The position numbers and the translations under genes are program-made. The notes beneath the pieces were generated by a model. The model saw only the letters and a list, made by a program, of their open reading frames with translations, was not told the origin of the DNA and ran no database searches. Below, in pieces: positions 52,499-63,556 of a stretch of DNA of 64,000 nt (position 1 is the first letter of the stretch; the number at the start of each line of letters is the position of its first letter). The stretch lies in assembly GCA_018662005.1 (NCBI GenBank), contig JABJHA010000015.1:1-64000 (forward strand), in the 5' to 3' direction. Origin of the DNA: Rhodospirillaceae bacterium (lineage in GTDB: Bacteria; Pseudomonadota; Alphaproteobacteria; Rhodospirillales; JABHCV01).

Positions 52499-52636
52499 CT
52501 AGAGCCGATCACGCTTAAACAGAATCATTACTTGATTCCGTTTAAGCGTGTGAATCGGCTCGCTTCTTAAAGAATCGATCAGTTTTTGACGTTTCGTTCG
52601 AGCACAACGTGTTCAAACTAAACGTCAACTGATCTA
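52499..52636. repeat. 138-bp double-hairpin element, copy 1
   Basis: It begins CTAGAGCCGATC and ends AACTGATCTA. Hairpin 1 (52502-52561) pairs GAGCCGAT...GCTTAAAC with GTTTAAGC...ATCGGCTC and continues through GAATCA/TGATTC to a tiny loop. Hairpin 2 (52577-52634) pairs GATCAGTT with AACTGATC through inner stems. It lies between the convergent YedK-type and universal stress genes and overlaps the TAG stop of the latter. A second copy of equal length is at 62124. Nothing else was found in this 305-base gap except the C-rich hairpin. Confidence 0.85.
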
Positions 52637-53497
52637 ATGCGCCATCAGTACCGGAAGACCGGCATTGGCCAGAACGTGTTTGGTGACACCGCCAAGGATC
52701 AACTGACGCATTCTGGAGTGGGTGTAAGCACCCATCACCAGCAGATCCGCCCCGATGGATTTACAGTCTTCCAACAACACTTCGCCAACCTGCGAGCCGC
52801 CAGGAAGATTGCGGGAATCTGCGCTAACCCCGTGCCATGCCAGATAAGCCACCAGTTCCGCCGCCACTGCCGAGGATGTCTTGTCATTTTCCGCGGTCAG
52901 GACGGTGACACTTTCGGCGCGGGTAATAAGCGGTATGGCGGCAGCAACGGCGCACGAGGCTTCGGCGCTGCCATTCCATGAAATGGCGATTTTCTTGCCG
53001 ATCGTTTCAGGTAAATGCGGCGGTGCGATCAGGACGGGACGTCCTGTTTCAAATATTGCCGCATTGATGGTCATAGCCAACGACGCATCGGACTGCTCGG
53101 TTGGTCGTGCGGTGACGACCATATCGACAAGTCGCCCTTTTTCGGCGCACAACACATCCTCGCGCCCCGTCGTTTTAACCAGTAACGCTGAGCCGTTCTC
53201 GCCCGCAGGCGGGCTTGCCTGGGTGGCAAGTTCGAAGCGGGCGCGGGCGTCTTCGAACATGGCCTCGGCGCGGGCCGTACGTTCGGTGGCCTCGCGTTCG
53301 GCCAACTGTATCATTTCTTCAATGATCGCCGCCGACATTCCCTCGCCCAGAAGGGGCACCGCATCCTTGGGATCAGTGGCAACATGCAAAACATCGACAT
53401 GAGCGGCCAAATCTCGCCCCAGCAACAAAGCGGCGTCGAGTGCCGTGCGCGATACTTCCGTTCCGTCAATGGGAACCAGAATAGTCTTGATAGACAT
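52634..53497 (-). CDS. Universal stress protein, two-domain type
   Basis: 287 residues made of two UspA-like halves. The first starts IKTILVPIDGTEVSRTALDAAL. The second carries IAISWNGSAEASCAVAAAIP and the nucleotide-binding pattern LLVMGAYTHSRMRQLILGG, ending VTKHVLANAGLPVLM. Such proteins bind ATP or other ligands and respond to stress in the cytoplasm. AAGGGAGA precedes the ATG. The TAG stop is formed by the end of the 138-bp element. Confidence 0.9.
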   Translation of the reverse strand: MSIKTILVPIDGTEVSRTALDAALLLGRDLAAHVDVLHVATDPKDAVPLLGEGMSAAIIEEMIQLAEREATERTARAEAMFEDARARFELATQASPPAGENGSALLVKTTGREDVLCAEKGRLVDMVVTARPTEQSDASLAMTINAAIFETGRPVLIAPPHLPETIGKKIAISWNGSAEASCAVAAAIPLITRAESVTVLTAENDKTSSAVAAELVAYLAWHGVSADSRNLPGGSQVGEVLLEDCKSIGADLLVMGAYTHSRMRQLILGGVTKHVLANAGLPVLMAH

Positions 53498-61548: not shown

Positions 61549-62127
61549 ATGCCCCAACCCGACCACATCGTCAGGATCGACCTGCCGGACGAAAGCTCAT
61601 TAAATGATGGCTTGAAGAAATACTTCGCCATTTGCATCGATAAACTGGGATTGGTGCCCTACGTTCTGAAATCCCTCATGGGCAACCAGACCAAGTTGTC
61701 CAACTTCATTGCCGTGTACAACGAACTGATGCTCAATGAGGAAGATTGCGGGCTTTCAAAACTCGAACGCGAAATGATCGCCGTCATCGTCTCAAGCGCC
61801 AACCGCTGTTATTACTGTCTGGTCGCGCATGGTCAGGCTGTGCGGGAGTTATCCGGTGACCCGCAACTGGGCGAGATGATGGCCATGAATTACCGGGTCG
61901 CCGAACTGAGCGACCGCCAACGCACCATGCTGGATTTTGCCTGGAAATTGACAAAGACCCCACATGACATTTCAGAATCCGACCGGCAGGGTCTCCGCGA
62001 TGTTGAATTTTCCGATCAGGATATTTTCGATATCACCGATGTGGTTGGCTTTTTTAACTACACCAACCGGCTCGCCCATGGCCTGGACATGATGCCCAAC
62101 CCGGATTATCACGCCATGAGTCGCTAG
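61549..62127 (+). CDS. AhpD-like / carboxymuconolactone decarboxylase family protein
   Basis: 192 residues, helical, with the redox pair CYYC in SSANRCYYCLVAHGQAV. This is the AhpD/peroxidase-related group, which uses the two Cys and a nearby His to reduce peroxides through a partner. The partner is not in the window. The TAG stop is formed by the CTAG start of the 138-bp element copy 2, and the last codons (HAMSR) may have been changed by it. Confidence 0.85.
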   Translation: MPQPDHIVRIDLPDESSLNDGLKKYFAICIDKLGLVPYVLKSLMGNQTKLSNFIAVYNELMLNEEDCGLSKLEREMIAVIVSSANRCYYCLVAHGQAVRELSGDPQLGEMMAMNYRVAELSDRQRTMLDFAWKLTKTPHDISESDRQGLRDVEFSDQDIFDITDVVGFFNYTNRLAHGLDMMPNPDYHAMSR

Positions 62128-62261
62128 AGCCGATCACACTTAAACGGTATCATTACTTGATTCAGTTTAAGTGTGTGAATCGGCTCGCTTTTTAAAAAAT
62201 CGATCAGTTTTTCACGTTTCGTTTGAACACAACGTGTTCAAACGAAACGTGAACTGATCTA
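62124..62261. repeat. 138-bp double-hairpin element, copy 2
   Basis: Same length and termini as the copy at 52499-52636, with about 12 differences. Hairpin 1 spans 62127-62186 and hairpin 2 62202-62259; the second is almost perfectly paired. Several differences between copies are paired changes inside stems (for example GCTTAAAC/GTTTAAGC against ACTTAAAC/GTTTAAGT). It lies between convergent genes and supplies TAG stop codons to both. Confidence 0.88.
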
Positions 62262-62963
62262 GTAATCTTCCCAGCTTTCGTATTTGTCGTCCTTTTTCGT
62301 CTCTTCCAGGTCATCAAAGGTGCCGGGCTTGGCGGCTTCGCCTTCCTTCATGTCGTGCATATCACTGTCCTGCCACTCGGTATCACCATCGCCGTCGCCA
62401 TGATGAACGTAGGCTTCCTGTTGGAAAAAGCTTTCCTCTCCATCTTCATCCTGGAGATTATCCTCGCGATCCTGTTGATCGGCAGGCTCGGTCTCGTCAC
62501 TACTTGAAAGCAAACCGTAAAGAAAAACCATGGCATCGGCCCTTCTTCTGAAAAAACCAACAAGACGGTTGGGGCGGCGGTTATTTTTCCTGCCTGATTT
62601 CTTACGCCTGGATTTTTTGCTCTTTTTCTTAACAAACGCGGCGGCTCTTTCTATACGGTTTTCTTTTACTTTGCCAAGCAACTGCCTGATGGTGGCTTTC
62701 ATAACTGGCAAGCGTTCATCGCTGGCGTCTTCGGGGATCAGTTTTTCAAGAAAAGCCGTCAGTTTGCCCAAAACCGGCATGTCCCGTTCGCGGGTGAAAA
62801 TCGTACGGATAATAGCGTCCGTTTGTTGTTTCAATTGGGCCGGTGTTTTGCACGCCGAAACAACAGCCAGCAACCCGGTTTCCTGATCTTCAAACAGGGC
62901 CTGCCAATCCGTCGTGCCATCGCTGGTTGACGGCCAGTCGCTTTTTTTTGCAATCGCCACCAT
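62259..62963 (-). CDS. Hypothetical protein with basic centre and acidic tail
   Basis: 234 residues in three parts: a helical N-terminal half (LLAVVSACKTPAQLKQQTDAI, VMKATIRQLLGKVKENR), a strongly basic stretch near 110-140 (KKKSKKSRRKKSGRKNNRR) and an acidic Asp/Glu tail. No signal peptide. The basic stretch suggests nucleic-acid binding, but no domain is recognised. The TAG stop is formed by the 138-bp element. The ATG at 62963 has GGAAAA upstream. Confidence 0.6.
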   Translation of the reverse strand: MVAIAKKSDWPSTSDGTTDWQALFEDQETGLLAVVSACKTPAQLKQQTDAIIRTIFTRERDMPVLGKLTAFLEKLIPEDASDERLPVMKATIRQLLGKVKENRIERAAAFVKKKSKKSRRKKSGRKNNRRPNRLVGFFRRRADAMVFLYGLLSSSDETEPADQQDREDNLQDEDGEESFFQQEAYVHHGDGDGDTEWQDSDMHDMKEGEAAKPGTFDDLEETKKDDKYESWEDY

Positions 62964-63112: not shown

Positions 63113-63556
63113 ATGAAGCTCAATCTGGGCTGCGATCGTGATGTCATATGTTCTTGAACACCTGGGCGCTGATCCACAGGTGTTCCTGGGAATCATGAAG
63201 GAGTTGTACCGTATTTGTGCACCCGACGCGCATATCATCATCACCGTTCCCCATCCGCGGCATGATCATTATCTTTGCGACCCAACCCATGTCCGCCCGG
63301 TTCTTCCCGAAATTCTCAATCTTTTTTCCAAGACTCTGAACCGCCAGTGGAAGGAAATGGGATTGGCCAACACGCCGCTTGGGCTTTATCTGGATGTCGA
63401 TTTTCATCTTGAAAAGATCGAGGTGGTGTTAGCGAGTGGGTTCAGAAGGAAGTCATCGCCGGTAACCTCACCGAGAACGACGTCGCCCACTTGGCAAAAA
63501 CCCAGAACAACATCATTCAGGCCATGCCCATGACTTTGCGGGCGTTAAAAACGTGA
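63113..63556 (+). pseudogene. Broken class I SAM-dependent methyltransferase
   Basis: A start ATGAAGCTCAATCTGGGCTGC encodes MKLNLGC, the beginning of SAM motif I, but the frame stops after 14 codons. The next frame begins IVMSYVLEHL (the motif after the SAM-binding loop) and runs to about 63430, with RICAPDAHIIITVPHPRHDHYLCDPTHVRP as recognisable methyltransferase sequence. The third frame then continues SEWVQKEVIAGNLTENDVAHL to a TGA at 63554. The gene has therefore lost its middle N-terminal part and gained a frameshift near 63425. It probably had about 200-250 residues. It is not expected to be functional. Confidence 0.7.

Follow-up and report, generated by a model that had tools for sequence, protein, structure and literature searches.

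A double-hairpin element that moved into TA dinucleotides and often lies between convergent genes in a Rhodospirillaceae genome

The DNA analysed here, a stretch of 64,000 nucleotides from a draft Rhodospirillaceae genome (the window), carries two copies of a short palindromic element which moved into a TA dinucleotide and duplicated it. At pairs of convergent genes whose stop codons coincide with the insertion site, each gene ends exactly at the element. We consider it probable that the element is a non-autonomous MITE, moved in trans by a Tc1/mariner/IS630 transposase with duplication of TA; it may also form a two-way mRNA 3′ end.

Two double hairpins between convergent genes

A first-pass annotation of the window had reported a palindromic element in two 138-bp copies, and both are present where it placed them, 138 bases long from left CTA to right CTA and 91% identical. 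The mobile unit is refined here from those 138 bp to 133 bp with a TA on each side. In the list below, G001 is the nearest relative of the genome under study and belongs to the same genus.

52502–52634, forward strand: element copy 1, 133 bp, G...C; aligned with 13 other copies; the site is empty in G001, with a single CTAA
52500–52501, no strand: left TA of the duplicated target of copy 1; a single TA at the empty G001 site
52635–52636, no strand: right TA of copy 1; with the terminal C of the element, the TAG stop of gene 52634–53497 (reverse strand)
52502–52561, forward strand: hairpin 1 of copy 1, from the fold; 3-nt TGA bulge at 52551–52553
52562–52576, no strand: A+T-rich linker of copy 1, from sequence and fold
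52577–52634, forward strand: hairpin 2 of copy 1, from the fold; 3-nt TTT bulge at 52584–52586
62127–62259, forward strand: element copy 2, 133 bp, G...C; aligned; the site is empty in G001, with a single CTAG that ends both convergent genes
62125–62126, no strand: left TA of copy 2; with the G of the element, the TAG stop of gene 61549–62127 (forward strand)
62260–62261, no strand: right TA of copy 2; with the C of the element, the TAG stop of gene 62259–62963 (reverse strand)
62127–62186, forward strand: hairpin 1 of copy 2, from the fold
62187–62201, no strand: linker of copy 2, GCTTTTTAAAAAATC, with a T run on both strands, from sequence and fold
62202–62259, forward strand: hairpin 2 of copy 2, from the fold

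Folding confirmed the two long hairpins of each window copy on either strand, with energies of −63 to −68 kcal/mol and z-scores of −9.5 to −12.4; 0 of 200 dinucleotide shuffles folded as well. The hairpins measure 58–60 nt each and, read from their own outer ends, follow a common plan: ~7–8 pairs form an outer stem, an inner stem comes next, and the inner strand bears a 3-nt bulge. Copy 2 runs from CTA through GAGCCGAT-CACACTTAAACGG...GTTTAAGTGTG-TGA-ATCGGCTC-GCTTTTTAAAAAATC-GATCAGT-TTT-TCACGTTTCG...CGAAACGTGA-ACTGATC to TAG. The two ends of the element are alike at 8 of 11 bases (GAGCCGATCAC and GATCAGTTCAC, compared by eye from the alignment), and GAATC and GATTC flank the hairpin 1 loop in the element family of this genome. 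The placement of both copies between convergent genes, also reported by the annotation, is borne out by the open reading frames and by codon-usage gene models. A search of the window with Rfam gave 0 matches above the gathering score, and a known Rfam RNA was rejected as an identity for the element.

Empty sites and duplication of TA

Both window sites are empty in G001, where the flanking genes lie in the same order and the empty alleles read ...CCCTAATGCG at site 1 and ...CGCTAGTAATC at site 2. The sites of two further copies, L003 and L009, are also empty in this species. All four sites searched by their flanks in G001 thus hold a single TA, in keeping with the 2-bp target duplication of an IS630/Tc1-type MITE, and together with the many copies described below these empty alleles bear out the earlier view of a mobile palindromic element. 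Two other sites, L004/L031 and L013/L033, are filled in both species, as judged from the likeness of their flanks by eye.

The extent of the duplication follows from the flanks. At copy 1 an empty CTAA became CTA-G...C-TAA; L010 is flanked by TTA and TAG, as are L110 and L111; in element orientation L010 has TTA on the left and CTA on the right, and so do two members in genome G004. The outer bases vary independently (C or T on the left, A or G on the right) and the element keeps its G...C. Since only TA is common to all flanks, the unit is G...C with a duplicated TA, and a 3-bp or 4-bp target duplication is ruled out by the flanks of copy 1, L010, L110 and L111. The target TA lies mostly within CTAG. 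L003 is a misfit, in that the base to the left of its TA is C in the filled allele and T in both G001 and G002, so that a substitution must be assumed there.

Elsewhere in the window, at position 63135, G001 is ~117 bases longer (L074, near G001:C51:25768-25885). The additional sequence is coding-like by eye, and on the same basis the window genome seems to have undergone a deletion here, with no further element involved.

Copies and derivatives in the genome

The genome under study (G000) is a 3.5-Mb draft in 53 contigs, about 96.5% complete. A search of the whole draft, which the first-pass annotation had proposed as a check, found 18 distinct element places and one 27-bp remnant, so the element is not limited to the two window copies. 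At 133 bp, non-coding and present in 18 copies plus the remnant, it has the build of a MITE. Twelve copies (L001–L012) keep both hairpins, L012 with a 15-base internal deletion, and the other six (L013–L018) are truncated or have lost one hairpin. The remnant, on contig C40, consists of GAGCCGATCACGCTTAATAAATCGATC between two TA and has lost both hairpins. Three 88-bp forms lack hairpin 1 (L016, L017 and L036, at G000:C4, G000:C38 and G001:C127). They occupy separate loci, in two species, and their deletion junctions are nearly identical; they represent either a mobile one-hairpin form or recurrent deletion of the hairpin via short repeats. Searches of plasmids, phages and viral contigs, one of them by exact pattern only, gave no element match, and an origin from these sources was rejected.

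Insertion at shared stop codons

The 14 intact-ended copies of this genome (the truncated-end L013, L014, L015 and L018 are excluded, and L002, with one mutated TA, is included) were classed by the stop codons at their sites, counting open reading frames of 100 aa or more. Six copies lie at double stops of convergent genes (L005, L006, L008, L012, L016 and L017), four at a single stop (L001, L003, L004 and L009) and four at none (L002, L007, L010 and L011). L015, which is outside the 14, is bordered on both edges by the stops of convergent genes, and the single copy of this family in G005, a genome of the same taxonomic family, is also at a double stop.

To set these counts against the available sites, genes were called with a simple codon-usage caller on 740,803 bases of three contigs (C4, C8 and C15), and sites taken by the elements themselves were excluded. 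Of the YTAR sites, 2286 fell within genes, 894 between genes, 214 at a single stop, 18 at double convergent stops and 8 at a stop inside another gene; the corresponding counts for CTAG were 153, 84, 32, 2 and 0. At the background double stops, two convergent genes have exactly 4 bases in common at YTAR, an arrangement seen 18 times per 741 kb. Double stops are therefore in strong excess among the copies, at 6 of 14 against 18 of the 1,126 empty non-disruptive YTAR sites (Fisher p 1e-7), and also against the 118 CTAG sites (p 1e-5). When only the three modelled contigs are counted, 3 of 5 copies are at double stops (p 5e-5 against YTAR, 3e-4 against CTAG).

At the six double-stop sites the element supplies each gene with a new TAG: it begins with G on either strand, so that TA plus G rebuilds the stop of both genes. 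The G001 empty alleles of copy 1, copy 2, L003 and L009 carry the same stops. Pfam domains were found in 9 of the 10 proteins scanned at the six double-stop sites, which involve 12 proteins in all; the scan found none in the tenth, encoded by the window gene 62259–62963. Entry into a TAG or TAA stop, or into a YTAR shared by convergent stops, would thus restore TAG for each gene, leaving the proteins unchanged and placing the double hairpin directly after them.

The double-stop bias was not seen at 33 other loci of the superfamily, where 1 site is a double stop, 9 are single and 23 have none, as against 2 double, 40 single and 122 without a stop in the control for these loci (n=164). A preference for convergent stops as a property of the whole superfamily is therefore unsupported (1/33 against 2/164). 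In the genome under study, the bias reflects either target choice or survival. At one further locus, L106:575-677 (G001:C186:7574-7676), a related element occupies the loop of an apparent intrinsic terminator, AAAAAGGGAGGC-A-TA ... TA-AAACGCCTCCCTTTTTT, and terminator loops may be further targets.

A possible role at mRNA 3′ ends

The position of the element directly after two genes makes it plausible that it acts as a two-way mRNA 3′ end, terminating or protecting the transcripts of both. Transcripts of either gene would meet a very stable hairpin and then the T-rich linker, and could be ended or protected there. A simple intrinsic-terminator scan flagged neither window copy, probably because the bulge breaks the ungapped stem rule of the scan.

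A less likely explanation of the same features is that host selection keeps the element between convergent genes as a regulated two-way terminator or RNA-processing site, and that its mobility is incidental. Such a role would agree with the marked over-representation of the element at double stops of convergent genes here and with the great stability of the hairpins, as well as with the run of 5 or 6 T that follows the first-met hairpin of copy 2 in each direction. However, both window sites are empty in the sister species, which has the same gene order; the T runs are interrupted in several copies; and 4 of the 14 intact-ended copies lie at no stop codon, when open reading frames of 100 aa or more are counted.

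Paired changes within the family

The first-pass annotation had further argued from paired substitutions between the two window copies that folding is under selection. The paired changes that it named exist, as an A-U to G-C change in hairpin 1 and a C-G to G-C change in hairpin 2. Across 14 family members, 97.6% of cells pair, and both sides have changed in just 3 of 49 pairs (5 of 676 cells, against an average of 1.1 in shuffles). As evidence for selection these within-family changes are weak. In L009, the TTT bulge is lost and there is a second change, both making the left arm match the right; L010 has gained a bulge on the other arm; and L033 has lost the TGA bulge and carries a paired change in the same hairpin. 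These arm corrections make it unsafe to read paired change as selection at the scale of the family.

Template switching in quasi-palindromes is described as a source of such arm corrections (PMC7202029, PMC3820800). The hairpins could equally well have been kept paired mainly by mutation, with replication template switching copying one arm onto the other and no need for selection on folding. The arm-copying in L009, L010 and L033 speaks for this process, of a type of mutation described in PMC7202029. Furthermore, L004 and L007 carry one half of the paired change of copy 1, and in them it is unpaired.

A fold conserved across the class

The covariance model that the first-pass annotation had proposed was built from the family of this genome (R1). 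It finds relatives, among them a diverged type, B, in G004 and a shorter one, C, in the family. Five copies of type B show compensatory changes in 18 of 52 pairs. Related elements occur in the order and in the class: of 248 genomes of the order, 23 are matched by a model of type B (R2) and 21 by R1, which makes 30 genomes in all, and class-wide R2 has matches in 11 of 385 genomes, the genome under study included.

Covariation was assessed on an alignment of 22 members to which 20 genomes each contributed one or two; its consensus fold covers hairpin 1 in full and hairpin 2 in part. Compensatory changes were found in 30 of the 32 pairs of this fold. In total 92.1% of cells pair, whereas shuffles reach 66.7% and slid partners no more than 42.9%. 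Changes on both sides affect 189 cells (52 in shuffles), and changes on one side, to a wobble, affect 12. The fold is conserved across the class, so that the part of the earlier argument that concerned a maintained fold gains from this wider covariation what the paired changes within the family could not give it. Wobble changes should be rare if it is in DNA, or on both strands, that the palindrome matters or is copied, and their rarity is also in line with template switching.

Bulges and ends were tabulated for the 65 best-scoring members only (L106, L109, L189, L191, L235, L240, L241, L245, L036, L038 and L013–L018 are outside this table). The hairpin 1 bulge in these 65 is TGA in 42, TAA in 5, AAA in 4 and absent in 4; that of hairpin 2, read from its own end, is TGA in 19, AAA in 14 and absent in 5. 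Terminal TA is present at the left end of 55 and at the right end of 52. At least one GANTC occurs in 61 of the 65, and the GANTC conserved class-wide sits at the bulge. Template switching erases bulges, yet a bulge of 3 nt persists on the inner strand throughout the class, as judged from these 65 best-scoring members, and the bulged form therefore seems to be selected.

A probable transposase

Duplication of TA is a hallmark of the Tc1/mariner/IS630 family, as set out in work on ISY100 and IS630 (PMC2170065), and the title of a study cited there states that an IS630-associated transposon prefers TA in CTAG. Ends were searched for beside DDE_3 genes at 18 loci, and six of these, with pairs of at most 5 mismatches in 20, supplied the 12 ends of a matrix. 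In these six IS630-type elements of the order, five start with GAGC and one with GAGT. The remaining loci comprise seven without a TA-flanked pair and five that were left out (L117, L203, L213, L215 and L217, with 6 mismatches of 20), among which only L217 has GAGC at both ends. Scored with this matrix, the two ends of the element rank in the top 0.5% and 0.3% of 42,166 TA+11-mers in 741 kb of its own genome, and at 2.5% and 1.5% among YTAG-form sites only. The ends of the type C relatives do not score as IS630-like.

Duplication of TA, CTAG targets and IS630-like ends together lead to an IS630/Tc1-type MITE and not to the REP/BIME type, and on this footing we infer IS630 as the mover. A Tc1/mariner/IS630-family transposase supplied in trans would insert the element into the TA of CTAG-like sites and duplicate the TA, and the outer ~11 bases of each end would serve both as terminal inverted repeats and as the outer strand of a long hairpin with a bulged inner strand. 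No DDE_3 (IS630) transposase was found in the draft genome itself, and over 248 genomes the element showed no association with DDE_3, which is present in 15 of the 30 genomes with elements and in 89 of the 218 without (p 0.43). One IS630-type element of G001 (L120:1121-2173, contig C99) has TA-GAGCGTGTTCA ends, and the target flanking it is an imperfect palindrome centred on TA.

The first-pass annotation had favoured a unit of the REP/BIME type. In such a unit two inverted REPs, with a tetranucleotide 5′ of each hairpin, would be moved via single-stranded DNA by a Y1 enzyme of the RAYT/IS200 type. In most copies each hairpin is indeed preceded by CTAG on its own strand. The two hairpins repeat a single layout in inverted orientation, like the paired, inverted imperfect palindromes of intergenic REP/BIME units, and in all but 3 of the hairpins scored the bulge lies on the inner strand. 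Of the 248 genomes of the order, 69 carry Y1 genes. However, no Y1_Tnp/RAYT gene was found in the draft genome, about 96.5% complete, and over the 248 genomes Y1 showed no association with the element (9 of 30 against 60 of 218, p 0.83). The outer bases vary (C/T, A/G) and TA alone is constant. REP units measure 20–40 bp (PMC3733652) and carry a GTAG-type tetranucleotide, whereas the element measures 133 bp, with hairpins of 58–60 nt and an outer base of C or T. Furthermore, the forms without hairpin 1 at different loci (L016, L017 and L036) suggest that this hairpin may be dispensable, the other reading being the recurrent deletion mentioned above. With its size, its TA duplication, its IS630-like ends and no Y1 gene found in the draft genome, membership of the REP/BIME group was rejected, and we regard this origin as very unlikely. 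A single-strand transposase that cuts a TA-containing site could leave the same TA...TA footprint.

Comparison with known repeats

The closest known kind in the literature consulted, likened by description only, are the CIR repeats of Caulobacter and Brucella (Caulobacter CcrM-associated intergenic repeats, Chen and Shapiro 2003; also in PMC10969869), the mobility of which is unexplained according to PMC2229807. CIR are described there as short intergenic alphaproteobacterial repeats with two long hairpin arms, a linker, TA termini and GANTC, and the element has the same two arms, linker and TA termini. In the same description CIR are ~110 bp long, have GANTC at the terminal loop and no TIR, and have a target duplication marked unknown. 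In contrast, the long type studied here is ~133–138 bp, with GANTC at the bulge junctions (and beside the hairpin 1 loop in the family of this genome), an imperfect TIR and a TA duplication seen at empty sites.

RUP of Streptococcus pneumoniae resembles the element as a ~100-bp non-autonomous unit with a TA target and ends like those of the local IS630, and IS630-Spn1 is its proposed mover; repeats other than CIR are described in that account as without arms or linker (PMC2229807). Unlike RUP, the element resides in a draft genome in which no IS630 was found, so its partner is only deduced. Correia/NEMIS and ERIC are likewise small TA-flanked MITEs with strong folds, processable in transcripts (PMC2229807, PMC10969869), but they pair end to end and not as two independent arms (PMC2229807). 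Br-REP1 of Bradyrhizobium is palindromic and transcribed, and occurs where convergent genes share their 3′ region; it differs in having a 20-bp core among three palindromes, and the account in PMC5082802 describes no TA-flanked double hairpin.

An extended reading, which we hold to be unlikely though worth stating, is that these are transposon-end hairpins found class-wide with a conserved 3-nt inner-strand bulge, that the mover recognises the bulged hairpin itself, that shared convergent stops are preferred targets in this lineage, and that each insertion would install a portable two-way transcript end with both proteins left intact. Were the bulged hairpin recognised in this way, the movement of CIR repeats would also be explained. 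For this similar alphaproteobacterial group, the comparison of filled with empty sites, the duplicated TA and the resemblance to IS630 ends offer a testable answer. Because the stops restore themselves, such a mobile element would be silent at the protein level, yet it could shift transcript ends. The arm-copying cases advise caution against taking every paired change in a palindrome as selection for RNA folding.

Matches were also observed in G029, a genome of the order with 2 contigs and 4.1 Mb, which has 12 R1 matches (contig C1, for example at L200). Most of these are ~107 bp long, close to the size reported for CIR.
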